From assembly GCF_026616205.1 (NCBI RefSeq), contig NZ_JANHGR010000003.1, positions 186,001 to 250,000 on the forward strand: a DNA stretch of 64,000 bases, read 5' to 3'. This document shows positions 26,680 through 39,724 of the stretch, in pieces. This DNA comes from Halolamina litorea (GTDB taxonomy: Archaea; Halobacteriota; Halobacteria; Halobacteriales; Haloferacaceae). A model generated the notes under the pieces. The model saw nothing but the letters and a program-made list of their open reading frames with translations. It was not told where the DNA came from and ran no database searches. The first letter of the stretch is position 1. Each line of letters starts with the position of its first letter. Position numbers and translations under genes: made by a program.

Positions 26680-27690
26680 TCAAGCTATCCGCTGTTCCCG
26701 CAACGGCGCGGCGAGCGTTTCGTCGACGGCGACCCAACCGTCGGGCGTCTCTTGGATCAGCCCGTACTCGTCGAGCTTCTTCCGATACTGCACCACCATC
26801 TGGCGCGTGTTCGACCCGCCGAGCTCCTCGTAGCCCTCGAAGATCTCCTGTGGGCGCACGGCACCGCTCTGCCTGATCGCCCGGTAGACGAGCTGGTGAT
26901 TGACGCCGAGGCTCTCCAACTGCTGTTTCCGGATACGCGCATGTGCGTGCTCGAAGCAGTCCTCGAGATCCTCCTCTCTCACCGTCGTGTGTCCGCGATC
27001 GATCCCGAGGTCGACGGCGCTCCGTAGCGCTTGAACGCCGAACCGCGCCGACCCGCCGGCTTCGGCGACGATCCGCTCTAACTGCCTGTCGTCGACGACG
27101 CCGTGCTGAAGCGCGACTTCCCGCCGGGCAGCAAGGATGGTGAACAGTGCGTCGTGGGAGTACGGGTCGAACTCGATGATCTCGCTGTAGCGGAGATAAT
27201 CGACGGCATCGGGAATTTGTCCGAGCGCGTTCGAGCGGCGGTGACCGATCAGGATCAGCGAGAGCCACTCGATGCCGGCGAGGTCACTCAGTAGTGCTGT
27301 CTCTTCGAGTCCGCCGATCTCGTCGAGGATGACGACGAACGGTTCATCGGGTGCGGCGATCAGTTCGCGGAGGCGCTCGGTGCTGGTGTTCTGCGTCGCG
27401 AGGACCGATGGGTGTTCATCAGCGATCTTCTTCAGCGCCTCCCAGCGCGTGTTCGAGACACAGGAGACGTACTCGGACTCGATGCTCCAGTTCCACCGGA
27501 GTTCGCGGAGGAGGTACTTCGCTGTCGACGTCTTGCCGACGCCGCTTGGGCCGATCTCCCAGCATGACTCGGCGGGTTTGCCTTCGGTCGCTGGCTCCAG
27601 AACGTTGCTGATGCGTTGGAGTTGGCGTTCGCGCCCTGGCATCGCCCGCGGGAGATGGTGTTCTTCGAGTTTGTCCGCGGCGACGTACAT
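26680..27690 (-). CDS. Orc1/Cdc6-type AAA+ ATPase
   Basis: A 336-residue Orc1/Cdc6 relative. The AAA+ Walker A is GPSGVGKT at residues 47-54 and the Walker B is VVILDEIGG with Asp123-Glu124. The sensor and lid regions follow (SARFGVQALRSAVDLGIDRGH), and the C-terminal ~80 residues form a winged-helix domain (HQLVYRAIRQSGAVRPQEIFEGYEEL, NTRQMVVQYRKKLDEYGLI). I chose the ATG at 27690. It is transcribed divergently from the operon holding a PolB2-like polymerase, so it is probably the initiator or loader of that replication-type module. Haloarchaeal genomes carry many such paralogues. Confidence 0.85.
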   Translation of the reverse strand: MYVAADKLEEHHLPRAMPGRERQLQRISNVLEPATEGKPAESCWEIGPSGVGKTSTAKYLLRELRWNWSIESEYVSCVSNTRWEALKKIADEHPSVLATQNTSTERLRELIAAPDEPFVVILDEIGGLEETALLSDLAGIEWLSLILIGHRRSNALGQIPDAVDYLRYSEIIEFDPYSHDALFTILAARREVALQHGVVDDRQLERIVAEAGGSARFGVQALRSAVDLGIDRGHTTVREEDLEDCFEHAHARIRKQQLESLGVNHQLVYRAIRQSGAVRPQEIFEGYEELGGSNTRQMVVQYRKKLDEYGLIQETPDGWVAVDETLAAPLREQRIA

Positions 27691-27833
27691 GGTTGAGTGG
27701 TGAGGCGTGGCTAGTACATAAAGGGTGGAACAGGGGGGTTGCAGAATGTTCCCCGATTGATAAACTCTCCGGTGGGTGGTTTCGAAACACCCCTTCTCGG
27801 CGTTATACTGTCCTCTCACACCATGGGTCGCAT

Positions 27834-28130
27834 ATGGCCACCACGGCTACGCAGTCGAGTCAGAAAGAACAGTTTTCGATCGACACCCGCGACCACGGGC
27901 ATCCCGACGGTCCGGCACACGTTCTCGTGGAGGTTTCGCCTGCCCAGCGTGGGGTTCTGATGGCGGTCTGTGCCGCTGGTGGTGCCGGGCGTTGTAGTTT
28001 TGATTTCTCCATCGACGACGGCGTCAAGGTGCAGAAAGCGTTTATCGGCGGTGAGCGTGCTGCCGTGGAGGAACTTCCGGCATGGGTCGATCCCATTCGA
28101 GAACGTATCGAAACAGAAATCGAGGGCTAG
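27834..28130 (+). CDS. Small protein at the head of the PolB2-like operon
   Basis: A 98-residue protein starting MATTATQSSQKEQFSIDTRD. A conserved-looking core (AHVLVEVSPAQRGVLMAVCAAGGAGRCSFDFSIDDG) and a helical C-terminus (LPAWVDPIRERIETEIEG) suggest a small alpha/beta domain; no known motif is recognised. It is the first gene after the divergent Orc1/Cdc6 promoter and lies one base upstream of the next small frame. Association with the replication module is inferred from position. Confidence 0.6.
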   Translation: MATTATQSSQKEQFSIDTRDHGHPDGPAHVLVEVSPAQRGVLMAVCAAGGAGRCSFDFSIDDGVKVQKAFIGGERAAVEELPAWVDPIRERIETEIEG

Positions 28131-28131
28131 G

Positions 28132-28299
28132 ATGCCTCACAGACTCAGTATCGACCGCAATGGGCCGACCTCGATATGGGAGGTCCATGGGGCAGTACGT
28201 TGGAGATCTGATGCGGGGACTCACGGGCAGCAAGGGTCCCCCTCAGACGGGAGAGGAATGGTCCAGTCGGAACCAATCAGGCTGTTCGGTACCAGCTAG
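28132..28299 (+). CDS. Possible 55-residue ORF in the PolB2-like operon
   Basis: An ATG one base after the preceding stop opens a 55-residue frame (MPHRLSIDRNGPTSIWEVHG...RLFGTS) that ends three bases before the next gene. The tight packing on both sides favours a real gene. The sequence is basic compared with neighbouring proteins and has no recognised domain. Confidence 0.4.
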   Translation: MPHRLSIDRNGPTSIWEVHGAVRWRSDAGTHGQQGSPSDGRGMVQSEPIRLFGTS

Positions 28300-28302
28300 A
28301 CG

Positions 28303-29001
28303 ATGGCCCGGAGAAACACCACGAACGGCAGGTCGTACAGCATCCCTGAGCTCCCCTCTCTCGAACAGGGTATCACCCTGCTTGAGTCAGACGGTGATGC
28401 CCGGCTCCCGCTGCAGACACTCATGGTGGACCACCTCCTGCTCGAACGTGGGCACGGAGTGTGGGTCGGGACTGGCCGGTACTGTACCACAGACACGCTG
28501 GCCGACGTCGCTCCTGACCGACGCGTTCTCGATCGCGTCGATGTCGCCCGAGGCTTCACCCCGTATCAGCATACGGCACTCATTCAGGATCTCGAGGGCC
28601 ATGTTGACGACGAGACGGCTGTGATCGTTCTTCCAGCTATTGATTCTCATTACCGGAGTGACGATGTCCACGGGTCCGGTGGCCAAGAGATGCTTGTGCG
28701 GGCGATCGCCCAGTTGGCGGCCGTCGCCCGACGCCACGAGGTCCCGATCCTCTGTACCCGAGCCAAGGCGGATGCATTCAGCGAGCCGCTTGAGGCAGCG
28801 GCGTCGTCGTCGCTAACGGTCCGAGAAACGTCGATGGGGCCGCGATTCGTCGGCGAGGAGTTCGAGACGCTAGTCTACGAACTCGACGGCGAGTGGGTCC
28901 AGACGACGATCGCGTTTTGGCAGGGAATACTCGAGGCTCGACAGCCGATCCACGAGACAGCGACGCTTACTGAGGGGGTGTTTGCTCGTGGGACGGTCTA
29001 A
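28303..29001 (+). CDS. RecA/RadA-like protein with degenerate Walker A
   Basis: A 232-residue protein with a RecA-like beta-alpha order. It includes LLLERGHGVWVGTGRYCTTDTLADVAP where a P-loop would lie, and ETAVIVLPAIDSHY in the position of a Walker B strand. Further strands follow (AIAQLAAVARRHEVPILCTRAKADAF). There is no GxxxxGK[ST], so ATP binding is probably lost or altered. It resembles RadB-like accessory proteins more than active recombinases (inference). It lies upstream of the polymerase gene in an apparent operon and may act as a polymerase- or recombination-accessory factor. Confidence 0.6.
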   Translation: MARRNTTNGRSYSIPELPSLEQGITLLESDGDARLPLQTLMVDHLLLERGHGVWVGTGRYCTTDTLADVAPDRRVLDRVDVARGFTPYQHTALIQDLEGHVDDETAVIVLPAIDSHYRSDDVHGSGGQEMLVRAIAQLAAVARRHEVPILCTRAKADAFSEPLEAAASSSLTVRETSMGPRFVGEEFETLVYELDGEWVQTTIAFWQGILEARQPIHETATLTEGVFARGTV

Positions 29002-29239
29002 CCCCACGTATCGCGACAACCTTCGCCACCTTGAGGATCGTTGGAGCGACTATCGGCGAGCACTCCGGCGCCGCGATCAGGAACACTTCGACCACCTCTG
29101 GGAACAGGCGGCGGGCTACGCCGATGCGGCCGGCTACCAGAACACTGGTCGGAACCTCGACCTCGTCCTCGTGTCGATCATTCTGGCTCAGGAACGCCGT
29201 ATCGCCGCCCTCGAGGACGCAAAGGGACTCGAAGAATGA
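28988..29239 (+). CDS. Small protein between RecA-like and PolB2-like genes
   Basis: An 83-residue protein from a GTG at 28988 (a TTG at 28982 is also possible). It contains a conserved-looking aromatic and charged segment (YRDNLRHLEDRWSDYRRALRRRDQEHF) and helices (AGYADAAGYQN, LDLVLVSIILAQERRIAALED). It overlaps the stop of the upstream gene and the ATG of the polymerase (four-base overlap), so it is translationally coupled to both. It could be a structural subunit or adaptor for the polymerase; this is inference from position. Confidence 0.65.
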   Translation: MGRSNPTYRDNLRHLEDRWSDYRRALRRRDQEHFDHLWEQAAGYADAAGYQNTGRNLDLVLVSIILAQERRIAALEDAKGLEE

Positions 29240-31347
29240 CGTACTGTATCGACTTTCCGGACTCCAGCACGGCTGTCGAGTGGTCGCTAACCGACTCAGG
29301 AGTGACGCGAAAGGAAGTGACCTATCACCCGCGGTTCTACGTCGCCACCGAGGGTGGTTCACTTGCGGAGATCGCCGAGTCGATTGCTGTTCATCCAGAG
29401 GTTACCGCAGTCAGTCAAGAACGGCACCGTCCTGGCTGGCGTCACGACGAGACAGCGATGCTGGCCATCGAAGTGTCAACGCTGGGGAGTATCCCTCGGT
29501 TGGCGTCGACGATCGCCGATGTCGGCAGACCCGGGACCTACCGCTGTTTCAACGTCGACCTCTCACGCGAATTTCGCTACTGTCTGGAGGCGGGAACGGA
29601 CCCGACACCCGACCGAGCGCCGACGGTGATGGAGCTAGACACACCGCCCATCACCAAGTCTGGAGGTATCGAGTCTATGACGGTGACAACCCCGGGTGGA
29701 GAGACTCATTGCTTGGAGCGCTCGCCGTCGACAATCGTCCGACAGGTAGAGAGACTGATCGAGGAGACTGATCCGGACGTATTGCATGTCTCTTCTGCCC
29801 AGGTCATCCCGGAACTGTTCGACGCCGCCGAGGGAACGCTCCGTCTGGGCCGAGAGCCAGGGTACACACAGTTAGCAACGGCAAGCACCTACGAGAGTTA
29901 CGGGCAGATCGGCCATTCACCCGCGCGGTACAACGTTCCGGGCCGGGTGGTCGCCGACGCCGCGAACTCGTTTTTCCTGACCGAGACCAACCTGCACGGG
30001 ATTCTGGATCTCGTTGAGCGCTCCCAAAAGCCCCTCCAAGAGGCCGCATGGGCGAGCATCGGGAACATCCTCACCGCGATTCAGATCCGTGAGGCGCTTG
30101 CTCAAGACGTACTCGTTCCATGGCGGGCGTGGCGCCCGGAGTTCTTCAAGACCGCTGCAACGCTTGATGCAGCCGACCGAGGTGGCTACACGTTCTCGCC
30201 AGACGTCGGCGTCCATGAGGATGTGTACGAAGTCGACTTCTCGAGCCTCTATCCGAACATCATGTGTACACGGAACATCTCGCCCGAAACAGTCTGCTGT
30301 GACTGTCACCCAGAACGAGAAGACGTTCCGGGACTTGGGTACAGCATCTGTCCGGAACCAGGCTATCTACCCGATGTGCTCCGGCCACTCATCGACGACC
30401 GTGACGAGATCAAGCGCCGTATCCGCGAGGGAGATGGCGATGTCGACGAACTCGAAGGGGCATCGGCGGCGATCAAGTGGATCCTCGTTTCGTGCTTTGG
30501 CTATCAAGGGTTCTCGAACGCGAAGTTCGGCCGGATCGAGTGCCACGAAGCCATCAACGCCTTCGCCCGAGAGATAATCCTCGACGCCAAGGCGACGTTC
30601 GAAGAGCATGGCTGGCGAGTTGTCCACGGGATCGTTGACTCACTCTGGGTGACGCCGATGGACGGACGAGAGCAAACGGATCTGGAGACGGTCATCAGGG
30701 CAATCTCCGACACGGCCGAGATTGAACTTGAGTACGAGGCCACCTATGACTGGATCGCGTTTTGCCCACGACGAAACGATAGTGTGGGGGCTCTCACCCG
30801 CTACTTCGGGAAGCGTGCCGGTGCTCCCGCCGATCAAGCATCAAGCTACAAGCGACGCGGGATCGAGGCCCGGCAGCGGTCGACACCGCCGTTCATCGTC
30901 GACGCCCAGCTGACGCTGATGAAGGAATTCGGGCGGACACGGTCTCCTGAAGCAGTCTGTGAACGGCTCCGTGAGTTCATCGAACGGTTGCAGGTGGGGG
31001 AGATAGAGCCTTCGCGATTGGCGATCACCAACCGCGTCTCGAAACGCGTCGATGAGTACACACAAACGACGAAGAACGTCGCTGCCTTGGAGCGGGCGTC
31101 GGATCAGGGGCTGGCAACGCATCCCGGGCAGGACGTGGCGTACGTCGTCGTCGACGACGAGACGTCAGGCCGAGAGAGGGTTGCCCTCGTGCATGAGGAG
31201 CCATCGGAGTATGATACTGTGTTCTACCGAAATCAGCTGTGCCGAGCTGCCGAGTCAGTGCTGGCGCCTGTTGGGTTCCGTCGGTCGGACATCGAGGCTC
31301 AACTATCTGAGCGCGTCGATGGGTCCGTTTCAGCGTATTCGACGTGA
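29236..31347 (+). CDS. Family B DNA polymerase (PolB2-like)
   Basis: A 703-residue family B polymerase. Motif A is DFSSLYPNIM with Asp334, motif B is KWILVSCFGYQG with Lys414, and motif C is HGIVDSLW with Asp468. In motif C the first Asp of the usual DTDS is Ile, so one of the two carboxylates is missing. I cannot find an intact exonuclease DxE in the N-terminal half (the closest is MELDTPP), so proofreading is probably absent. These features match the divergent archaeal PolB2 group. The enzyme is in an operon with a RecA-like and two small proteins and is divergent from an Orc1/Cdc6 gene. A role in element replication or translesion/repair synthesis is inferred. Confidence 0.88.
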   Translation: MTYCIDFPDSSTAVEWSLTDSGVTRKEVTYHPRFYVATEGGSLAEIAESIAVHPEVTAVSQERHRPGWRHDETAMLAIEVSTLGSIPRLASTIADVGRPGTYRCFNVDLSREFRYCLEAGTDPTPDRAPTVMELDTPPITKSGGIESMTVTTPGGETHCLERSPSTIVRQVERLIEETDPDVLHVSSAQVIPELFDAAEGTLRLGREPGYTQLATASTYESYGQIGHSPARYNVPGRVVADAANSFFLTETNLHGILDLVERSQKPLQEAAWASIGNILTAIQIREALAQDVLVPWRAWRPEFFKTAATLDAADRGGYTFSPDVGVHEDVYEVDFSSLYPNIMCTRNISPETVCCDCHPEREDVPGLGYSICPEPGYLPDVLRPLIDDRDEIKRRIREGDGDVDELEGASAAIKWILVSCFGYQGFSNAKFGRIECHEAINAFAREIILDAKATFEEHGWRVVHGIVDSLWVTPMDGREQTDLETVIRAISDTAEIELEYEATYDWIAFCPRRNDSVGALTRYFGKRAGAPADQASSYKRRGIEARQRSTPPFIVDAQLTLMKEFGRTRSPEAVCERLREFIERLQVGEIEPSRLAITNRVSKRVDEYTQTTKNVAALERASDQGLATHPGQDVAYVVVDDETSGRERVALVHEEPSEYDTVFYRNQLCRAAESVLAPVGFRRSDIEAQLSERVDGSVSAYST

Positions 31348-31522
31348 TTGGTGGCAAGGTTTCGCCCATAGAGAAATTTACGGCGACGACGAACTCCAAG
31401 GCTACTTCTGGGAGGTGGATGACCGCAAGTACTACTACATCGAGACGACCGGCGTTGGGTGGGGCATTGGTGACCTTCCTGACGAGTACAAGGACACCTC
31501 GGCATATACGAACCAAGTCTGA
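31319..31522 (+). CDS. Small aromatic-rich protein overlapping the polymerase 3' end
   Basis: A 67-residue frame (MGPFQRIRRDWWQGFAHREI...DELQGYFWEVDDRKYYYIE...AYTNQV) starting inside the last codons of the polymerase gene in another frame. The density of Trp and Tyr is unlike random GC-rich frames and favours a real protein. No domain is recognised. The overlap implies co-transcription with the polymerase. Confidence 0.5.
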   Translation: MGPFQRIRRDWWQGFAHREIYGDDELQGYFWEVDDRKYYYIETTGVGWGIGDLPDEYKDTSAYTNQV

Positions 31523-31595
31523 AGCTTGTGATGCGAGGTATGGCTCGCTCAACAAAGGGCCACGAGAACCGGAATGTCGAAACGGCCGACTCTCG

Positions 31596-32402
31596 TTACT
31601 GTTCTGAGCTCCGGATTTCCGATTGTAACGACTCTGCAAGGGCATACGGGTGCTTGATCGCTCGCGCCCGAATGCGGGACGCACTAGATTCACCAGCAGA
31701 CTCGATCACAACGTGACCGATACCGAACAACCGCTCCATAGCCGTCTGGCTTTCCTGAGTCGCCTGGATTCGTGAGAGGGGAATCGCCTTACTTCGGACG
31801 CTCAGCAACCGATAGCTCTGTATGAAACGTTGGCTCGTAAGGTAATATCGGGTGAGAGAGTTGATCCAGAACTGAACCATCCCCGTTGCGTAGGCATACA
31901 GTCCGAGAAGCATCAGTGCAACCGGATAGGCTAGCGGAACCGAGGGATCGAAGAAAATCACGACGCCCCCGAGTACCAGCGTCATCCCGACTGTTCCACG
32001 GATAGTGGCGACTCGCTTTGTCGGCGTTGTCGTTGCGAGGACGCTCTCATCTTGGTATGTTCGCGGATTTGGCGGCGACGATATCTCCGTAGCGATTCCG
32101 CCAGCCCAGACGGCCAAGCCGATAACGAGCGGCAGGTAGCCGATCTCTGTTGGAAGGGGCGTATTGCCCGCTAGCAAGACGCCTCCCCCAACGACGAACG
32201 GAGACCCACTGAGGAAACTCCAAAGCAGGACATGATGTTCGAACACTTGACTCAGTCGAGTGCTCATCGTCGCAAGAAGCCCTGCTGACAAAGCAGAGCT
32301 CGCTTCCGGCTCAGAGTCACTACCGGACTCGAGTGGGACTAGTTCGACCGGCTCGTTAGCCTGACTCTCTTCAGGTTGGTCGGATAGAGATTCGTTATCC
32401 AT
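31596..32402 (-). CDS. Membrane protein with a bacterial-type PH domain
   Basis: A 268-residue protein. An acidic cytosolic N-terminus (about 1-45) is followed by four hydrophobic segments (HHVLLWSFLSGSPFVVGGGV, IGYLPLVIGLAVWAGGI, GTVGMTLVLGGVVIFF and PVALMLLGLYAYATGMV). The C-terminal ~85 residues match a bacterial PH-domain (YdbS/YdbT-like) fold: YYLTSQRFIQSYRLLSVRSKAIPLSRI, then FGIGHVVIESAGE. Such proteins usually sit in the inner membrane and scaffold other factors. The upstream gene on the same strand encodes a secreted beta-propeller protein, two bases away, so they are probably co-expressed. Confidence 0.72.
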   Translation of the reverse strand: MDNESLSDQPEESQANEPVELVPLESGSDSEPEASSALSAGLLATMSTRLSQVFEHHVLLWSFLSGSPFVVGGGVLLAGNTPLPTEIGYLPLVIGLAVWAGGIATEISSPPNPRTYQDESVLATTTPTKRVATIRGTVGMTLVLGGVVIFFDPSVPLAYPVALMLLGLYAYATGMVQFWINSLTRYYLTSQRFIQSYRLLSVRSKAIPLSRIQATQESQTAMERLFGIGHVVIESAGESSASRIRARAIKHPYALAESLQSEIRSSEQ

Positions 32403-32404
32403 TG

Positions 32405-34162
32405 TTAGTTGTCCTTCAGGACGGTGTACGCGACGCCAACGATCGAGACAATAAACCCGACTGCAGACAGGACCCACGCAGAAATCGGTCCTTCAAGCAG
32501 TCCATCCCCCTGGAAGAACAGTCCTCTTTCCGCTCCGAAGAGAGACTGGCTCTGAGCGGAGCTCTCTGGGGGCTGTGTGGTGGCCGAGCTGGTGTCCGTT
32601 GCCGAGTCTGGTGGGCGCTCAGACCCTGTTTCAGTTGGTGTGTCTCTTGAGGAGGTTGGTGTTGCTTTTTGCACAGTGACCGATTTTGTCACCGACTGTG
32701 TGGAGCTATCAGTATTAGTCACCGACAGCATCACTTCGAATTCGCCGGCGGATTCGAATTCGTGCTGTACTGTCGGGCCGGTCGCATCAGCCACCCCGTT
32801 TCCATCGAAATCCCATTCAAATCGGGAGATCTCCTCGTCGTCGCTACTTGCTGTCGCATCGAACTCGACAGTCTGGCCGACGACAGGAGATGCTGGCGAG
32901 ACTTTGAATGCCGGTGTCGGTGGCTCATTTGGTGGTGCGTTATGGATCGAGTATAGGTATCCATCTGCCCCCGGAACGTACAGTACACCGTCAGCAACGG
33001 CGAGTTCTCCCCAGACGTTGGTCTCCAGGTCTAGCGTCCATGCCTCTGCGCCCGTGTCTATGTTGTAGGCGTGGACTGTTCCGCTCAGATCTGCTACGTA
33101 CGCATACGTTTCATCCGCCACGACAGACGCGTTCGTATTTGCGGATATTCGAGCCTTCCAGTTGAGATCTCCATCGACGAAGTCGTTCGCATATACGTAG
33201 GTAACCTCGTTATCCCGATCGCTAGCCGCTGTCACTACGGTTCGGCCAATCACAGCAGAGGACATCGACTCGTTAAAGTAGACTTCGTCATCTGAGATCC
33301 CGTAACTCCACGAAGTACTCCCATCTGACGTGCTAGCTGATGAAATGCCACCGAAACTGGACCCGATGAGCGAGCGTTCGCTGAGTGCTGGAGAGCTCGT
33401 CAGATATGCTCCTTCAGACCAGACTACTTCCGCCTCTTGAACATCGATCGCAATCAGACCATCTGATGCGGGAACATACACTGTATCCCCACCGATAGCT
33501 GGCGAAACTGGCTGGAACGCGGTGACATCTCGGTCTGCGACCCCAAACGGACCCGCAATGTACACTTCCTCTCCGTCATGGTTGAGGACATGTAGGTGTG
33601 GGAAGTCGCCGGCTCCACCAGTTCCAAGGAACGCGATATAGTCGTTCGTTGCCGTGATCGGGTGATAGAGAGCGGCGTCTGGACTGGCGTACGACCACAA
33701 TTCAGCACCGTCGGTGCTGAGCGCATAGAGCTGGCCGGTGTTGTCACCTGCGTATACCTGACCTTGACGTACTGCGATTCCCGCCCTCACTCCGCCTTCC
33801 GCTTCGAACTCCCATTGGATAGAGCCATCCTCTCGATCGACGCTGTAGACCTTGCCATCTTCGCTCCCGAGATAGACAGAGTCCCCAACAACTGCAGGAG
33901 CACTCGCGATTGCGCCTAGCGTAGAGGCACGCCATTTGGTTTCCACGGGTGACTGCAATGGTGTCGATGCTGTTGCAACTCCTGTATTGGCAGTCGTTCG
34001 CTGGAACTCATGCCAGTCACTTGCGTCAGAATCAACCTGTCTGGCCGGCGCTTGCCGCGAAGATGCCCGGCCGATAGACAGAGACGAAAGAGCCGCCCCA
34101 GAAGCACCGATTCCTAACCCATAGAGGAGTCGGCGGCGTGTGGTGGCATCCGTGACGTTCAT
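32405..34162 (-). CDS. Secreted PQQ-type beta-propeller protein with PKD domain and C-terminal anchor
   Basis: A 585-residue protein from the ATG at 34162 (a start at 34174 adds only four residues). The N-terminus has a Tat-type signal (TTRRRLLYGLGIGASGAAL). About residues 60-415 form PQQ-like beta-propeller blades with the repeat type VYSVDREDGSIQWEFEAEGG and LYALSTDGAELW. A PKD domain follows (about 420-505, ending EVMLSVTNTDSSTQSVTKSV). Then come a Thr/Ser-rich stalk and a C-terminal membrane helix (WVLSAVGFIVSIVGVAYTV). It is probably an envelope-anchored protein facing the outside; no catalytic function can be read. It precedes the PH-domain gene by two bases. Confidence 0.82.
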   Translation of the reverse strand: MNVTDATTRRRLLYGLGIGASGAALSSLSIGRASSRQAPARQVDSDASDWHEFQRTTANTGVATASTPLQSPVETKWRASTLGAIASAPAVVGDSVYLGSEDGKVYSVDREDGSIQWEFEAEGGVRAGIAVRQGQVYAGDNTGQLYALSTDGAELWSYASPDAALYHPITATNDYIAFLGTGGAGDFPHLHVLNHDGEEVYIAGPFGVADRDVTAFQPVSPAIGGDTVYVPASDGLIAIDVQEAEVVWSEGAYLTSSPALSERSLIGSSFGGISSASTSDGSTSWSYGISDDEVYFNESMSSAVIGRTVVTAASDRDNEVTYVYANDFVDGDLNWKARISANTNASVVADETYAYVADLSGTVHAYNIDTGAEAWTLDLETNVWGELAVADGVLYVPGADGYLYSIHNAPPNEPPTPAFKVSPASPVVGQTVEFDATASSDDEEISRFEWDFDGNGVADATGPTVQHEFESAGEFEVMLSVTNTDSSTQSVTKSVTVQKATPTSSRDTPTETGSERPPDSATDTSSATTQPPESSAQSQSLFGAERGLFFQGDGLLEGPISAWVLSAVGFIVSIVGVAYTVLKDN

Positions 34163-34193
34163 CTGAAGCCTCATTTCTGGTCACGATACATAT

Positions 34194-34207
34194 ATCGGAC
34201 GTATTGC
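34194..34207 (-). promoter_or_regulatory. AT-rich palindrome/TATA element upstream of the PKD/PQQ protein
   Basis: CGATA-CATA-TATCG is a perfect inverted repeat lying 20-45 bp before the probable starts of the minus-strand propeller gene. Its AT-rich core is placed where a haloarchaeal TATA element for a near-leaderless mRNA is expected. It could double as an operator. Confidence 0.45.
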
Positions 34208-34302
34208 TGCTGGATTCGGGAGAGGTGAAGGGAAGGGCTCTATGCAGATGCCTTACTGGATGAGTAAGCGATAAGTCATGATTCGTTAGTATACAAACTA
34301 CT

Positions 34303-34641
34303 GTGAGCGATCGGAAGCAACTGACCCCCACCCAACAAGCGATATTAAACAAGGCCAAAGAGAACCCAGGCTGGCAGAACACCGAGATAGCCGAGGCCGT
34401 CGGTTGTTCGGATTCTCATGTTTCGAGAACCCTGAACAAGTGGAGTCCCAACGAGATGGATAGTGACGGGACAGTCCCAAAGAACGACTCCCCCTCATTG
34501 ATTGGGACTCTGCTCTGGGCGACATGGTGGCTTATCAAGATCTCCGTATGGGTATTGCTGTGGCCGATTTCGGTTCCGTACTTCGCATGGAAGTTGTATC
34601 GGAAAGCGGGCACAGACAACGGTTCACCCGAAGGCTCCTAG
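34303..34641 (+). CDS. HTH protein with membrane anchor
   Basis: A 112-residue protein starting from a GTG (MSDRKQLTPTQQAIL). The N-terminal winged-helix/MarR-like HTH is clear (NPGWQNTEIAEAVGCSDSHVSRTLNKW, residues ~20-48). The C-terminal part has one long hydrophobic region (LIGTLLWATWWLIKISVWVLLWPISVPYF, about 65-95) and a basic end. A DNA-binding domain tied to the membrane suggests a sensor-regulator or a tether. It is divergent from the PKD/PQQ gene and lies 45 bp upstream of a two-helix membrane protein, with which it may act. Confidence 0.7.
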   Translation: MSDRKQLTPTQQAILNKAKENPGWQNTEIAEAVGCSDSHVSRTLNKWSPNEMDSDGTVPKNDSPSLIGTLLWATWWLIKISVWVLLWPISVPYFAWKLYRKAGTDNGSPEGS

Positions 34642-34686
34642 CATACTTCCGAACCGATAAGTGTGAGTTCTTCACTCGTTACGGAT

Positions 34687-35748
34687 ATGCCGGGTGAGTC
34701 CCCCGATATCTTCGATATTGACTTCAGATCCATTCTGACCTTTGTTGTGGTAGCAGCGGTGCTGATCGCCTTGGGCATCCTCGTGAGGGCAGGGTTTGGA
34801 GACTCTGGGCTGACGATTCTAGACTTCGCCATCTCCGGGCTCTTTTCTGCAGCCTTGGTAATCCTATACTCGCGCCAGGCAACGATCATGGAGGGACAGA
34901 GTGATCTGATGAGGCAAGAAGTGAACCGGGAAGCGAGGCAGCAACATTCAGAAACTCTCAGAAAGCGCGTCGAGATCTGGCATGGAAATCCGGAACGGGA
35001 AGTCGGCGATTCCCCGATCGATACTCCAACGTTGAATACACCCACTATTGGGTCTAGATCGTTCAATTCCGCTAGTGCAGCTTTTTCGGCGGCATTCCCG
35101 ATGGACCAGACTTTCCACGTGATTCCAGAGCGCCTGCGTGGAGACCGATACCTCGAAGACCTGCTCGAAAACCATGCTCCAGATCTGCGAGAGATTGTGG
35201 AGAAGTTGCTCAGACTGGAGCAGGAGTTCAATGAGACACGAGGTGATTTCGAGAACGACTTCGAGGTAGAGATTCAGGGAGAATACGAGAGATACACAAT
35301 ACAGGAAACCGACCGTTTGTCAGGGTGGATATTCGACCTTCTTGTCGAGCAAAATAGGGGGCTCATTGACGACGCAGTTGAGAAAGGAAGGACAAAAGTC
35401 GAAAATTCGACGGCGAGAGAGCACCCTGAGAAATCTAAGATCTGGTTCCAAATCGAAGTTGGGGGAGGACGAAGTTTCTCAATTTTGGCGGCTGACGTGA
35501 CCGAAGACGAAGTAGCTGACATCCATGATCTCCGGACGGAGGTCAAGAAGGACGGTATGGAGGTGATGAACCACGTATTCGAGCAAATCAGAGACAATGC
35601 TCCATACGAGGCAGCCTCTGAGGGTGGCAGAATCCTTGATGAGGGGAAGGAAGCTACCGATAACCTCGAAAGAACGCTGATTGAATACCATGGTCGGCCG
35701 ATAATCCCTGGCGACTGTAAGTACCTGGACGAAGCGAAGCTAGAGTAG
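34687..35748 (+). CDS. Two-helix membrane protein with large cytoplasmic domain, unknown
   Basis: A 353-residue protein (start ATG 34687; a GTG at 34663 would add eight residues). Two N-terminal transmembrane helices lie at about 18-38 (ILTFVVVAAVLIALGILV) and 48-68 (LDFAISGLFSAALVILYS). A basic/charged cytosolic part follows (RQATIMEGQSDLMRQEVNREARQQHSETLRK), then a helical middle with coiled-coil character (LREIVEKLLRLEQEFNETRGDF) and a C-terminal alpha/beta part (IWFQIEVGGGRSFSILAADV). It is less acidic and AT-richer than core genes, consistent with transfer. No known family is recognised; a two-helix effector of a defence or stress system is only a guess. Confidence 0.65.
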   Translation: MPGESPDIFDIDFRSILTFVVVAAVLIALGILVRAGFGDSGLTILDFAISGLFSAALVILYSRQATIMEGQSDLMRQEVNREARQQHSETLRKRVEIWHGNPEREVGDSPIDTPTLNTPTIGSRSFNSASAAFSAAFPMDQTFHVIPERLRGDRYLEDLLENHAPDLREIVEKLLRLEQEFNETRGDFENDFEVEIQGEYERYTIQETDRLSGWIFDLLVEQNRGLIDDAVEKGRTKVENSTAREHPEKSKIWFQIEVGGGRSFSILAADVTEDEVADIHDLRTEVKKDGMEVMNHVFEQIRDNAPYEAASEGGRILDEGKEATDNLERTLIEYHGRPIIPGDCKYLDEAKLE

Positions 35749-36180
35749 GGTTTTCTCGGTTACACCGGCAAAGCCTGGTCCACCAGTGTGCTTGCAGTTC
35801 TCCATTTCCCCCTTAGCTAAGCATGTGCGTCCAAAGTTTGCTTAGAGCGCTGTGTGATCGGTGGTAATTTATGCTACTTCTCAATTGCCACACCCTTTAA
35901 TCAGAATTCCTGATGGGTTAACTTTGGAACCAAGTGACGCTCACGACATCCCGCCTTCGGGAGTCGTTGTCGTTGGTTGCGGTAATCGACTCCTCGGAAG
36001 CGAGTGTCACGATCAAAGAGTTGATCACCGGCGACGGTGTTGCGAGGTGATCATGCTGGAACTGGGTAACCCGAGATGTCTGCCGGACAAAACCGTAAAC
36101 AAGTGATTTCATGAATTGTGAAGAGCGTCGCTAGTGTACCGGCACACTAGGCTTTTCACCGACCACCACCATGTTGTGCT
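35749..36180. other. Intergenic region without recognisable gene
   Basis: A 432-bp AT-rich stretch. Short open frames of about 64-81 residues exist on both strands but have no recognisable motifs and cross each other. The only clear structure is the palindrome at 36131-36150 in front of the AbrB/PIN pair. I see no tRNA, IS end or repeat here. Confidence 0.5.
36131..36150 (+). promoter_or_regulatory. Palindrome upstream of the AbrB-type antitoxin (candidate operator)
   Basis: CTAGTGT and ACACTAG are perfect inverted arms around a CCGG core, 31 bp before the ATG of the antitoxin gene. Antitoxins with AbrB/VapB DNA-binding domains bind such palindromes to autoregulate, so this is the most likely operator. 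Confidence 0.5.
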
Positions 36181-36429
36181 ATGAGCAGTGATCGCATCGA
36201 CGCTGAAAGCAAAGTCTCAGGGAACCAGGCGAACATCCCTGCCCGAATCCGACGGGAACTCGATATCGACGACGGTGACCACCTCCGATGGCATGTCGAG
36301 AACGGGACGCTTCGCGTTGAGGTTGTCCAACAGGAGACGGGAACGTTCGCCAACTTCGACGGTTATGATGGAGATGAGGAGACTGACGTGACCACAGACC
36401 ACGACGCTTGGGGCGTCGACGCCGGGTAG
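36181..36429 (+). CDS. AbrB/MazE-type antitoxin (VapB-like)
   Basis: An 82-residue protein with a SpoVT/AbrB swapped-hairpin domain at residues ~8-48 (AESKVSGNQANIPARIRREL, then DGDHLRWHVENGTLRVEVV), followed by an acidic disordered tail that would wrap the toxin. It ends at the base before the PIN toxin ATG. Together they form a VapBC-type antitoxin-toxin operon. Upstream is a near-perfect palindrome (36131-36150) that could be its operator. Confidence 0.85.
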   Translation: MSSDRIDAESKVSGNQANIPARIRRELDIDDGDHLRWHVENGTLRVEVVQQETGTFANFDGYDGDEETDVTTDHDAWGVDAG

Positions 36430-36864
36430 ATGCCGCGAGCGCTACTAGACACCAGCGTCCTATTTGCAGCGACGTACCGCCGTGACAACGCTCATTCTGC
36501 AGCGCTACCGGTTCTTCGCGGCGTCGACGATGGGTCACTCCCCGAAGCGGTTGTGTTGGACTTCGTGCTTGCAGAAACCCTGAATGGGCTTACAACCCAT
36601 GCAGGTCACGATGCTGCGGTTGATTTGCTCGATCGGGTCGAGGAGAACTCTCATTTCCACATCGAGTCGCTGAGCTCCGACGCAAGAACGACAGGAAAAG
36701 CCCTCTTCAGACGGCACGAGTCACTCTCGTTTGTCGATGCCTGCATCGTCGCGTACATGCAGACTGAGGGTCTCGGCTATCTCTATGCGTTTGACGATGA
36801 TTTCGACGCTGTCGATGATGTCTATCGGCTCGATACAGCCGTGAATCCGTATAAACCGGATTGA
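36430..36864 (+). CDS. PIN-domain ribonuclease toxin (VapC-like)
   Basis: A 144-residue PIN-domain protein. The acidic metal-binding residues are visible: Asp7 in LLDTSVLFA, Glu near residue 50 in LAETLNG, Asp near residue 100 in SFVDACIVAY and the Asp cluster FDDDFDAV near residue 120. It immediately follows the AbrB-type antitoxin with no gap. VapC toxins cleave RNA, often tRNA or rRNA; the substrate here is unknown. The complete catalytic set argues for an active toxin. Confidence 0.88.
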   Translation: MPRALLDTSVLFAATYRRDNAHSAALPVLRGVDDGSLPEAVVLDFVLAETLNGLTTHAGHDAAVDLLDRVEENSHFHIESLSSDARTTGKALFRRHESLSFVDACIVAYMQTEGLGYLYAFDDDFDAVDDVYRLDTAVNPYKPD

Positions 36865-36965
36865 ACGACTGAAACTGTCTCCAGCTGTTCACAGCGCCCA
36901 GTCGCACAGTACGACGATATCGAGATCCACCACTCGCTTCTCGGTGACGAGGCATCAACGCCGTA

Positions 36966-37736
36966 CTAGCTGTCACCGTTGTCGTTCTCATCGTCGTCAT
37001 CGCTGTCCTCATCGTCACGGTGGTAGATATCCGGCCAATCGTACTCAGGGCCCTCCAACGGCTCTGGGGGCATGCGGTCCCAGAGGTCCGGCATCTCCTG
37101 TTCAAACCGATAGGTGACAGGTTGCAGTGGGATTGGCTCATATAGGCGATTGAGGAGACCAATCGACGGGAGCCATGGGATGTCTGCTGGCCGGATATCG
37201 GAGTATAGACGCACGTACAGGAGTGGGATGATGGGCTTCCCACCATCGGGTGGCGGTGAGAGGTCGAGACCAATCGTCGTCATTCCCGTTTTGGCGCTCA
37301 TGACCGACGCGTTCCACCGGAACACTTCCTCACGTCGCTCTTGGAGGTAAGACAGTCGTGGGTCGAATGTTTCGGCCTCCATCGAGAGTGCGTCGTACTC
37401 TTCGACGTCCCCTTCGGGGTAGTCGATCGACAGCATGGACGGCGTGTAATGGAGCTGTGTGGCATCCAGTAGAACAGGGAATGGAGAGGCGTTTGAGATC
37501 ACCAGTGCAAGGTCGCCTTCCATCTTTTGGAAGCCGACGCCGAGTTTCGGTGTGATTGTGTAGTGGGCAGCGAGTCGGATGCCAGCCCATAGGAGTGCGT
37601 ACGCTGCAGTCCCGATGCTGGTGGCAGTTGCGATGACCGCCAGGATACCGATTGCGGGCGTGATGAGGAACAATATCACTGAAAGAATCCCGGCAGCGAT
37701 ACTCAGCAAGTCAGCGGTGAGGATACGCCAGCGCAT
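36966..37736 (-). CDS. Membrane-anchored protein of unknown function
   Basis: A 256-residue protein with two N-terminal transmembrane segments (LLSIAAGILSVILFLITPAIGI and ATATSIGTAAYALLWAGIRL, within residues ~8-55). A soluble beta-rich domain follows (VGFQKMEGDLALVISNASPFPVLLD, MTTIGLDLSPPPDGGKPIIPLLYVRLY). It ends in a very acidic tail of Asp and Glu residues (DDEDSDDDDENDNGDS). The soluble part may bind other proteins or nucleic acid-associated factors; no family is recognised. It lies alone between a PIN toxin and a Fic gene in the island. Confidence 0.65.
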   Translation of the reverse strand: MRWRILTADLLSIAAGILSVILFLITPAIGILAVIATATSIGTAAYALLWAGIRLAAHYTITPKLGVGFQKMEGDLALVISNASPFPVLLDATQLHYTPSMLSIDYPEGDVEEYDALSMEAETFDPRLSYLQERREEVFRWNASVMSAKTGMTTIGLDLSPPPDGGKPIIPLLYVRLYSDIRPADIPWLPSIGLLNRLYEPIPLQPVTYRFEQEMPDLWDRMPPEPLEGPEYDWPDIYHRDDEDSDDDDENDNGDS

Positions 37737-37977
37737 GGTGTTCTAGTTAGGTGATTGGCAGCAAGTAGCTTTGTCTGGTATTGGGAATCGAATCCTCCGG
37801 AGGGGGTGAGGGTGACCAATTATCGGGCTGTCCTTGAGTTTTGTATCCACGCCACCATACGACCGCATTGAATGCAATCACCTGTTTTATTTTCATACTT
37901 AGTCGATCATAGCGGCTCAACCATTCATTTGCACCCAGTAGATTGATTTTGTGCGCGGGTTTACTGGGTGAGTATGC

Positions 37978-39153
37978 ATGCGACAGCCAGAACTCGATTC
38001 TAACGCTCCTGGCGAACTGATCTCCTATGGGCGGCGGTCCTACTACAAGCCGGATCCGCTGCCGCCATCTCGAGAGCTCGATCTCGGGGATGATTTCTAC
38101 GAGACGCTCTCGGAAGCGACATTCTGGCTCGGGAAACTCAGTGGAGTGAGTCTCGAACTCGACTTCCCACCAGTACTCTACACGTCACTCCTCCGTAAGG
38201 AAGCCATGGAATCCGCGGAAATCGAAGGCGCCGATGTTGACTATGACGCTCTCTACAGTCTCGAAACGCGCTCCTTTGACGCCGGCGAGGACGAGACTAG
38301 TGTTGAATCCACGACGGCCCAAACGAAGGACACGCAGGAAGTCCTCAACTACGAAGACGCTATCGAGGATGGTATCGAGGCACTCGACCGGGACGACGCG
38401 TTAACCGTTGAACGGCTGCACGAATTCCACGAGACGCTTCTCACTGGCGTTCCAGACGATCGGGCTGATACCGGCACTCTTGGCGCATACAAGACGAAAC
38501 CGAACCATATCGGTGACTTCCTCCCACCCGTTCCAGACAAAGTTGATGGGTTGATGGATGCGCTGTTCACCTACTACAGAACTGGCGGAAGCTACCACCC
38601 GCTCGTCGATATCGCGCTCTTCCATTACCAATTCGAGACGATCCATCCGTACGGGGATGGGAACGGTCGTCTCGGACGGCTCCTCATCACGCTCCAACTG
38701 TACGATGCTGGCTATCTCGAACGCCCGAACCTCTACCTCAGTGAATACTTCAATCGAAACAAGCCAACGTACGTCGACCGGTTGGAGGGCGTTCGATACA
38801 ATGGCAATTGGGAGGCTTGGCTATCGTTCTTTATCGAGGGTATTGCCCGACAGGCTCGTGAGTCCGTTGATCGAACACTCTCGCTCACCCGCCTCAAGCG
38901 TCGGTACGACGACGCGTACGGCGGCAAATCCTACACCAAGAATCAACTCGCAGTGAAGCTCTTCGAACAGCCGTACATCACCAGCAAGACTGTGCAACGA
39001 CTCTTCGATGTCAAGCAACCGACGGCGTCGCGAGCGATCAACGCGCTCGTTGATGAAGGCGTTCTCGAGGAAGTGACCGGGAAGGGGCGCAATAAGGAGT
39101 ATCGCGCTCGAGAGATTTTCGATATTCTCGAGCAGCCACCGCAGACCTACTGA
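37978..39153 (+). CDS. Fic/DOC-family AMP-transferase-type protein
   Basis: A 391-residue Fic protein. The Fic core carries HPYGDGNGRLGR with catalytic His223 (canonical HxFxxGNGRxxR). The N-terminal helix holds SAEIEG at residues 79-84, matching the inhibitory motif (S/T)xxxE(G/N). With the inhibitory helix N-terminal to the Fic core this is a class II Fic protein. The C-terminal ~80 residues form a winged helix (TSKTVQRLFDVKQPTASRAINAL, VLEEVTGKGRNKEYR), a frequent partner of Fic domains. Fic proteins usually AMPylate target proteins, and the target here is unknown. It may be a toxin or a regulator in the island. Confidence 0.9.
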   Translation: MRQPELDSNAPGELISYGRRSYYKPDPLPPSRELDLGDDFYETLSEATFWLGKLSGVSLELDFPPVLYTSLLRKEAMESAEIEGADVDYDALYSLETRSFDAGEDETSVESTTAQTKDTQEVLNYEDAIEDGIEALDRDDALTVERLHEFHETLLTGVPDDRADTGTLGAYKTKPNHIGDFLPPVPDKVDGLMDALFTYYRTGGSYHPLVDIALFHYQFETIHPYGDGNGRLGRLLITLQLYDAGYLERPNLYLSEYFNRNKPTYVDRLEGVRYNGNWEAWLSFFIEGIARQARESVDRTLSLTRLKRRYDDAYGGKSYTKNQLAVKLFEQPYITSKTVQRLFDVKQPTASRAINALVDEGVLEEVTGKGRNKEYRAREIFDILEQPPQTY

Positions 39154-39353
39154 CGCTAGTGGTGACGTGCCAGGTGATGGGGCCAACGTTTTCCCAGCGC
39201 TTGTCGATAAGGCGCGTTGACGATGGACAGCAGTCGCTGCAACGAGCCTGCGTGTCTCCAGCTGGCGACGATGGGCCCACAGCTCAGGGTGACCGCCAAA
39301 GTGACTCACGTGCATCGGCGATGCCTCGTTTCAAATCTGCAAGGGTCTTAGCT

Positions 39354-39446
39354 TCAACCCCACGAGGGTACGTCTGAAACCCAGATACCGCTGTTGACCA
39401 TCACCTTCACAACCTTCATGCCAGAAAACGTCCGCCGCGCCGTCAC
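39354..39446 (-). pseudogene. Truncated hicA toxin gene
   Basis: A GTG overlapping the hicB-like stop opens TARRTFSGMKVVKVMVNSG, which closely resembles the N-terminus of haloarchaeal HicA toxins (FSGxDVVKVMVNSG). After 30 residues the frame ends in a stop (39354-39356). The remaining ~50 residues of a normal HicA, including its catalytic His, are missing from this frame. The gene is most likely a decayed toxin that left its antitoxin behind. Confidence 0.55.
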
Positions 39447-39724
39447 TCGAAGATCTCCGAGTCTTCGATAGACCCGCTTTCGTTGTTTTCCGGGTCGACC
39501 CCGATCTCTCGGAGTTCTTCCTCGGTCGGCGCGTGGCCTTCACCATGGAACCCCGCAATCGCCTCATCGAGGTTATCGAGCGCAGCTCCCCGAGTTCGGC
39601 CCTGTGAGGAGAGGGCCGTTTCCTCATCACGGGCGACCCACCACTCCTCATCTTCAGAGAGGGTGAGCGTGATTGTCTGGGCCGCAGCCGGGTCGTCGAC
39701 ATGGGCCGGCGTGTCGGTGCTCAT
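39443..39724 (-). CDS. HicB-family antitoxin
   Basis: A 93-residue protein from the ATG at 39724 (MSTDTPAHVDDPAAAQTIT). The core matches HicB antitoxins: TLTLSEDEEWWVARDEETALSSQGRTRGAALDNLDEAIAGFHGEG, a partial RNase H-like fold. An acidic C-terminal tail follows. The paired hicA gene directly downstream is truncated, so the antitoxin is an orphan. A frame to 39742 adds six non-typical residues. Confidence 0.82.
   Translation of the reverse strand: MSTDTPAHVDDPAAAQTITLTLSEDEEWWVARDEETALSSQGRTRGAALDNLDEAIAGFHGEGHAPTEEELREIGVDPENNESGSIEDSEIFE

Follow-up and report, generated by a model that had tools for sequence, protein, structure and literature searches.

The DNA analysed here, referred to as the window, is a 64,000-nucleotide stretch of the haloarchaeon Halolamina litorea (positions 186001-250000 of its contig, in a 3.02-Mb genome of four contigs). 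Between positions 26680 and 31522 of the window, an Orc1/Cdc6 gene stands divergent to genes for a 98-amino-acid protein (s98), a RecA-like protein (iRadA), a small protein (PPB2) and a family-B DNA polymerase (PolB2), which are followed by a short open reading frame (ORF) (Table 1). The iRadA, PPB2 and PolB2 genes make up a PolB2 mutasome operon. In other haloarchaea, such operons are preceded by a tandem YYGGAA promoter element that they share with one family of short Orc genes. These short Orc proteins are candidate regulators of the mutasome, and in the window genome both the cognate Orc and its putative operator appear to have been lost.

Table 1. Coordinates of the genes and sequence elements at the locus (window positions).
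Feature	Position	Strand	Description	Basis or remark
Orc1/Cdc6 paralog	26680-27690	-	336 amino acids, short type; genus-restricted clade, outside the mutasome-linked Orc clade	
TATA-like box of orc1	27718-27723	-	CTTTAT, 27 bp before the ATG	Same place in 4/6 clade members, ATTTAT in a fifth
orc1 promoter element	27733-27754	-	GGGGAACATTCTGCAACCCCCC, with G-string and diverged half-sites	
Imperfect palindrome	27774-27793	.	GGGTGGTTTCGAAACACCCC, upstream of s98	Candidate operator or origin recognition box (ORB)
s98	27834-28130	+	98 amino acids; predicted beta-rich fold (predicted local distance difference test score 80)	
Degenerate remnant	28266-28293	+	GTCGGAACCAATCAGGCTGTTCGGTACC; at this place before iRadA, congeners carry CGGAACNNNNCGGAAC	No better than control promoters
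iRadA	28303-29001	+	Rad51/RadA paralog without Walker A	Profile matches, family alignment
PPB2 (arCOG07300)	28988-29239	+	GTG start, N-terminus MGRS	Gene order, alignment, PMC11791011
PolB2	29236-31347	+	Motif A DFSSLYP with Asp kept; motif C GIVDS with Ile for the first Asp; degenerate exonuclease site	
Gene scrap	31319-31522	+	67 amino acids; C-terminal ~48 residues of a lipoprotein-like family of 441-492 amino acids	Outside the mutasome homology block

A conserved mutasome operon

By its proteins and their order, the region 28303-31347 is the operon of the PolB2 mutasome, a translesion-synthesis complex that has already been described (Makarova 2014, PMC4104785; Timinskas 2025, PMC11791011). 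The polymerase scores 965 bits against the NCBIfam subfamily model NF004418, which has a cut-off of 692. Across 64 aligned PolB2 sequences the motif A aspartate is kept and motif C reads GIVDS (GIIDS in one); the same isoleucine-for-aspartate change is present in the IID motif of Sulfolobus islandicus PolB2 (PMC11791011). The iRadA protein gives weak profile matches to RadB (3e-5) and Rad51 (0.005), and the Walker A pattern GxxxxGK[ST] is absent from all 60 of the 60 family members. PPB2 begins with MGRT or MGRS in 48 of 60 relatives. Of the 61 loci analysed, about 58 show the order iRadA-PPB2-PolB2.

An earlier interpretation made from the letters alone (the sequence-only reading) had proposed an Orc1/Cdc6 gene divergent from a PolB2-like polymerase, a RecA-like protein without a P-loop and, encoded at 28988, a possible unrecognised polymerase subunit. 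All of these assignments hold, the last of them corresponding to the polymerase partner PPB2, which was already known. The short overlaps that it took to couple all the genes do join iRadA to PPB2 (14 bp) and PPB2 to polB2 (4 bp), but Orc1 and s98 are set apart by gaps of 143 bp (Orc1 to s98) and 172 bp (s98 to iRadA). Likewise, gene order in other genomes proved non-random for iRadA-PPB2-PolB2, but the window Orc1 lies outside this conserved order.

PolB2 matches better than 1e-30 occur in 246 of 392 Halobacteriales genomes, and the location of the mutasome block varies, including both main chromosomes and plasmids. In comparisons with four congeners, the ratio of nonsynonymous to synonymous substitution rates for the window mutasome is 0.10-0.25, and this copy has therefore been under purifying selection. 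A search for related loci based on iRadA yielded one locus only, in Halorussus, and a search of phages for PolB2 gave only distant Leptospira LE1 phages. In KF114879.1 and three other phage records of this type (L187), the family-B polymerases have 31-32% identity to PolB2, in alignments that cover three quarters of it.

The physical complex and its translesion activity are known from models and from Sulfolobus experiments in the literature, and mismatch extension and targeted mutagenesis by the mutasome come from Sulfolobus work cited in PMC11791011. By analogy with the Sulfolobus orthologs, the catalytically unusual PolB2, together with iRadA and the small helical PPB2, would extend mismatched or lesion-terminated primers, resulting in damage tolerance accompanied by mutagenesis. 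The window operon shares with archaeal PolB2 (Dpo2) mutasomes the same three proteins in the same order, the degenerate DxD with Ile for the first Asp, an iRadA lacking Walker A, the MGR[T/S] arm of PPB2 and an adjacent orc gene, which is a frequent neighbour. It differs in that the adjacent Orc belongs to another lineage and is divergent, and in that the usual promoter element is missing. A regulator gene also adjoins iRadA-PPB2-PolB2 in the LexA-linked bacterial PolB2 operons (PMC11791011), although LexA is unrelated to Orc. The orc linkage is covered in both PMC4104785 and PMC11791011, and promoters or operators are nowhere mentioned in the latter.

A tandem element upstream of mutasomes and short orc genes

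The element YYGGAA-N3-YYGGAA-N14-YTTAT is located about 60 bp before the start codon of mutasome operons and of one family of Orc genes that encode short proteins (~335 amino acids). Pairs of YYGGAA with a 9-bp period number 44 in 95 mutasome or linked-orc promoters, compared to none in the 680 remaining promoters from these loci. Periods of 10 and 12 bp are also enriched (12 and 12, versus 1 and 0 in control promoters). The main period is 9 bp, and in Halolamina it is 10 bp.

We scanned 293 genomes with the pattern YYGGAANNNYYGGAAN{12,16}YTTAT, using the reversed pattern as a control. About 97 matches were found in 73 genomes from 35 genera, compared to one match for the control. Of 40 matched regions outside the known loci, about 30 have the match immediately before a short orc gene (about 330-345 amino acids) or an irad gene, mostly 25-48 bp upstream of the called start. 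Matches before orc or irad are also present in genomes that lack PolB2 (G005, G061, G077, G093 and G192). The gene caller was a simple one that missed or mis-started some genes, and therefore some matches without a labelled gene may represent uncalled orc or irad genes. No broader regulon beyond orc and the mutasome emerged, as the genes next to the leftover matches are mixed or belong to no family.

The geometry of the element is fixed. The spacer to the TATA box is exactly 14 nucleotides in 94 of 115 instances, some of which were fetched with the 12-16 pattern, and spacer lengths of 8-11 and 17-21 gave none. In most irad promoters, the YYGGAA pair begins 59-63 bp before the called start codon. 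A literature search found no description of the element, which is no proof of novelty, and it is apparently undescribed so far. The element resembles the ultraviolet-B (UV-B) promoter motif TTTCACTTTCA of Halobacterium (PMC2556686), which is also a short tandem repeat, precedes the TATA box at about 50 bp from the start codon and belongs to damage-induced haloarchaeal genes. However, that motif has another sequence and serves other genes (radA1, top6B, vng17 and vng280). One irad promoter (L051, genome G038) has no tandem YYGGAA and instead carries CTTCACTTTCACC, which is similar to the NRC-1 UV motif TTTCACTTTCA.

A short Orc paralog as the putative regulator

Besides the mutasome, the short Orc gene is the only gene that regularly bears the element. 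In the Orc tree, the short proteins are set apart from canonical Orcs (support 100/98), and within them the mutasome-linked sequences form a clade (95/96) to which the plasmid Orc1 of H. salinarum NRC-1 belongs. The promoter of this NRC-1 gene (VNG_RS11090) has TCAGAAGATTCGGAAACGACACCCTTCCAATTAT and reads TCAGAAGATTCGGAAAC...ATTAT. The irad operator and the Orc gene are often far apart, being on different contigs in three genomes (G140, G102 and G424) and ~1.9 Mb from each other in a fourth (G264). Among the 392 genomes, 211 have both PolB2 and a short Orc, 35 have PolB2 only, 65 have the short Orc only and 81 have neither, giving an odds ratio of 7.5 when kinship is ignored. Two mutasome genomes without a short Orc (G266 and G115) are also without the element.

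In NRC-1, both the plasmid orc1 and polB2 are dispensable (PMC1906834), and for orc1 this fits a regulator better than an initiator. There is also a precedent in Sulfolobus, where Orc1-2 binds an ANTTTC motif upstream of its own gene, further damage promoters contain this motif, and the induction of the Orc1-2 damage network includes that of dpo2 (PMC9738581, PMC10470591). Taken together, the placement of the element, the cases in which operator and Orc gene are far apart, the co-occurrence, the dispensability in NRC-1 and the Sulfolobus precedent suggest that the short Orc is an autoregulated mutasome regulator and the haloarchaeal counterpart of Orc1-2. Both are Orc paralogs unlike initiators, with the proposed element in their own promoter and PolB2 genes among the presumed targets. 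The two systems differ in that the Sulfolobus element is a single ANTTTC hexamer whereas the haloarchaeal element is a tandem YYGGAA with fixed TATA spacing. Moreover, the haloarchaeal target set is small (the Orc itself and the mutasome) and is known here from sequence alone.

Short orc genes with the element also occur in other settings. At four loci the cassette is followed by a nuclease gene, which is of the PD-(D/E)XK Cas4-like type in two (L234:3749-4867 and L241:3499-4626), PLD/DrmC-like in a third (L237:3303-4454) and PDDEXK_4 in the fourth (L255:2776-4155). In NRC-1, a DrmE-family gene is located two genes from orc1. The cassette may serve defence genes besides mutasomes. No short Orc was found in a search of viral contigs. 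The annotated orc1 of pNRC200 (L318) encodes 308 amino acids and is shorter than its tblastn match, in which 330 of 337 query residues are aligned; the short annotation is a frameshift or a truncated annotation.

Absence of element and cognate Orc in the window genome

All six of the other Halolamina genomes examined carry one orthologous short Orc (100/100), and all six have CGGAAC-N4-CGGAA(C/G) followed by CTTAT in the same place of its promoter. In the four congeners that bear the mutasome at the shared site, the element also precedes iRadA in each case, with an additional copy of 12-bp period 54 bp further upstream. The window genome has no cognate short Orc, its best match being the window Orc1 at 30%. 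Its iRadA promoter has an operator score like that of control promoters (p 0.43), and no site is present near the locus. At the corresponding position only GTCGGAACC...TTCGGTACC is left. The simplest reading is that the regulator and the operator were lost together in this genome, with the genes themselves staying constrained. In a genome without PolB2 (G132, L164:1382-1799), both Halolamina mutasome operator copies are kept, 44 bp before a gene for an orphan protein of ~100 amino acids that is followed by an integrase-like gene.

Neighbouring genes and the orc1-s98 intergenic region

The window Orc1 has an intact P-loop (GPSGVGKT) and matches TIGR02928 with an E-value of 9e-36. It groups with six other sequences from the same genus in a clade of seven (100/100), and none of these six adjoins a mutasome. 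The mutasome-linked Orc clade excludes it, ruling it out as the conserved mutasome Orc. The relatives of s98 in the genus are 58, 54 and 43% identical, with weak matches elsewhere, and they adjoin Orc or ParA genes or have a tandem CGGAA operator. We rejected s98 as a mutasome component or polymerase subunit, since it occurs in no other mutasome locus, has no plasmid match, and its predicted fold returned no hit in a structural match search. Nucleotide homology with the four congeners is confined to about 28317-31336. In these genomes Orc1 and s98 are not beside the mutasome, and no Orc directly adjoins it. Judged from these comparisons, Orc1 and s98 are a genus-restricted, plasmid-like unit separate from the mutasome.

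The ORF at 31319-31522 shares 29 bp with the 3' end of polB2, as the sequence-only reading had noted in treating it as a coupled, possible polymerase subunit. The overlap is real but the subunit is ruled out. The ORF resembles lipoprotein-like ORFs in their C-terminal region, corresponding exactly to the last ~48 residues in four of six relatives tested, and its G+C fraction at third codon positions is 0.38 versus 0.70 for polB2. It reads as a broken gene remnant at the junction, the tail of an unrelated gene. From 31000 to 39500 of the window, the G+C fraction is about 0.51-0.58, compared to 0.62-0.65 around it, and this stretch is possibly an acquired island that starts at the mutasome. A second Orc of canonical type (409 amino acids) is encoded at 157489-158436 (L096) of the same 267.8-kb contig, which makes a secondary replicon the probable location of the window.

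An origin repeat had been anticipated near 27691-27833. Inverted elements with G-strings are indeed present, in that the palindrome at 27774-27793 and the G-string element at 27733-27754 flank an AT-richer stretch. However, they are at promoter distance to s98 and orc1, respectively, and an operator fits equally well. Similar elements precede Orc-clade members and the s98 relatives at two loci (L154 and L155) from genomes with the window Orc clade. A third relative, from a genome in which no window-clade Orc was found (G424), is preceded by a tandem CGGAA element at a distance of 44 bp from its start. These three cases are suggestive of a match between operator type and Orc lineage.

Proposed mechanism and alternative explanations

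What was observed directly is the conserved operon, together with the element, the fixed geometry of the latter and its near-exclusive placement. We propose that in haloarchaea a short Orc/Cdc6 paralog, unlike initiators, controls the mutasome operon by binding the tandem YYGGAA half-sites (9-bp period, 10-bp in Halolamina) 14 bp upstream of the TATA box. Sites before its own gene and before the iRadA operon would allow both to be switched together, as occurs with Orc1-2 in the Sulfolobus damage response, and DNA damage would be the stimulus. In the window genome, where cognate Orc and operator are gone, the mutasome would have moved to a site beside another Orc, one restricted to the genus, and the 98-amino-acid partner gene of that Orc. 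Its transcription probably begins on the s98 side or at a weak promoter belonging to the mutasome itself. We assign this overall reading a probability of roughly 0.7.

Several observations weigh against it. In plasmid-type mutasomes, what precedes irad is a diverged form of the element, CCTGAAACGCGGAAGC. In one case (L051) iRadA lacks the operator although the Orc is present, 35 of the 246 PolB2 genomes are without a short Orc, and in one genome that is 81% complete (G008) the operator is present and no such Orc was found. The co-occurrence is uncorrected for relatedness. Finally, the element beside an orc gene could be an ORB rather than a transcription operator. If so, the short Orc would be an initiator and mutasomes would be located at or near origins by chance. 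Haloarchaeal origins do adjoin orc genes and contain inverted ORBs with G-strings (PMC3528665), and the GGAAAC part of the element resembles ORB halves. Nevertheless, we consider this unlikely given the fixed distances of the element to the TATA box (14 bp) and to the start codon (~60 bp), its usual occurrence as a single copy and not an inverted pair, its presence before irad genes that are separated from any such orc by megabases or lie on other contigs, and the dispensability of NRC-1 orc1.

The sequence-only reading had suggested that Orc1, the small proteins and the polymerase form a single module that could serve an integrated element as its replication or repair core. The repair core stands, as the known mutasome, and the close, divergent packing of the genes, the island-like drop in G+C fraction over about 31-39.5 kb (to ~0.51-0.58, from ~0.62), and an independent divergent Orc-mutasome pair in another family (L065, where the Orc start is about 190 bp from iRadA on the opposite strand) would all agree with a single module. 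However, the homology block shared within the genus ends at 28317 and 31336 with neither Orc1 nor s98 beside it, the mutasome is widespread on chromosomes and plasmids, Orc1 is from a clade that is not linked to it, and the ORF at 31319 is a scrap. A single module is thus very improbable, and the integrated element is unsupported. A somewhat better, although still doubtful, proposal is that the window mutasome has come under the neighbouring genus-restricted Orc via the divergent orc1-s98 promoter region. This would accommodate the joint loss of cognate Orc and operator from genes under purifying selection, the palindrome and G-string elements shared by the orc1 and s98 promoters and by s98 relatives in genomes with the window Orc clade, and the tandem CGGAA operator of the G424 relative in a genome with the other Orc only. 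Yet the 172 bp between s98 and iRadA contain no obvious copy of the element, the arrangement is present in one genome only, and the constraint may predate the relocation.

The preferred reading, in which a short Orc acts through tandem YYGGAA sites, can be extended to a LexA-like, Orc1-based mutagenesis switch that operates across replicons and that in this Halolamina has been passed to a second Orc lineage that uses a different operator. We offer this extension only tentatively.

Implications

The locus is mostly explained as a known operon together with a gene remnant and an Orc unit that is unrelated to it, and what is new is the regulatory element. PolB2 mutasomes are a main route of damage-induced mutagenesis in Sulfolobus, and the YYGGAA element is a candidate for the corresponding switch in haloarchaea. 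The window genome represents a natural loss of both parts, which helps to tie the regulator to the operator. Haloarchaea have many Orc genes, and these findings suggest that some of them would encode promoter regulators, not initiators.

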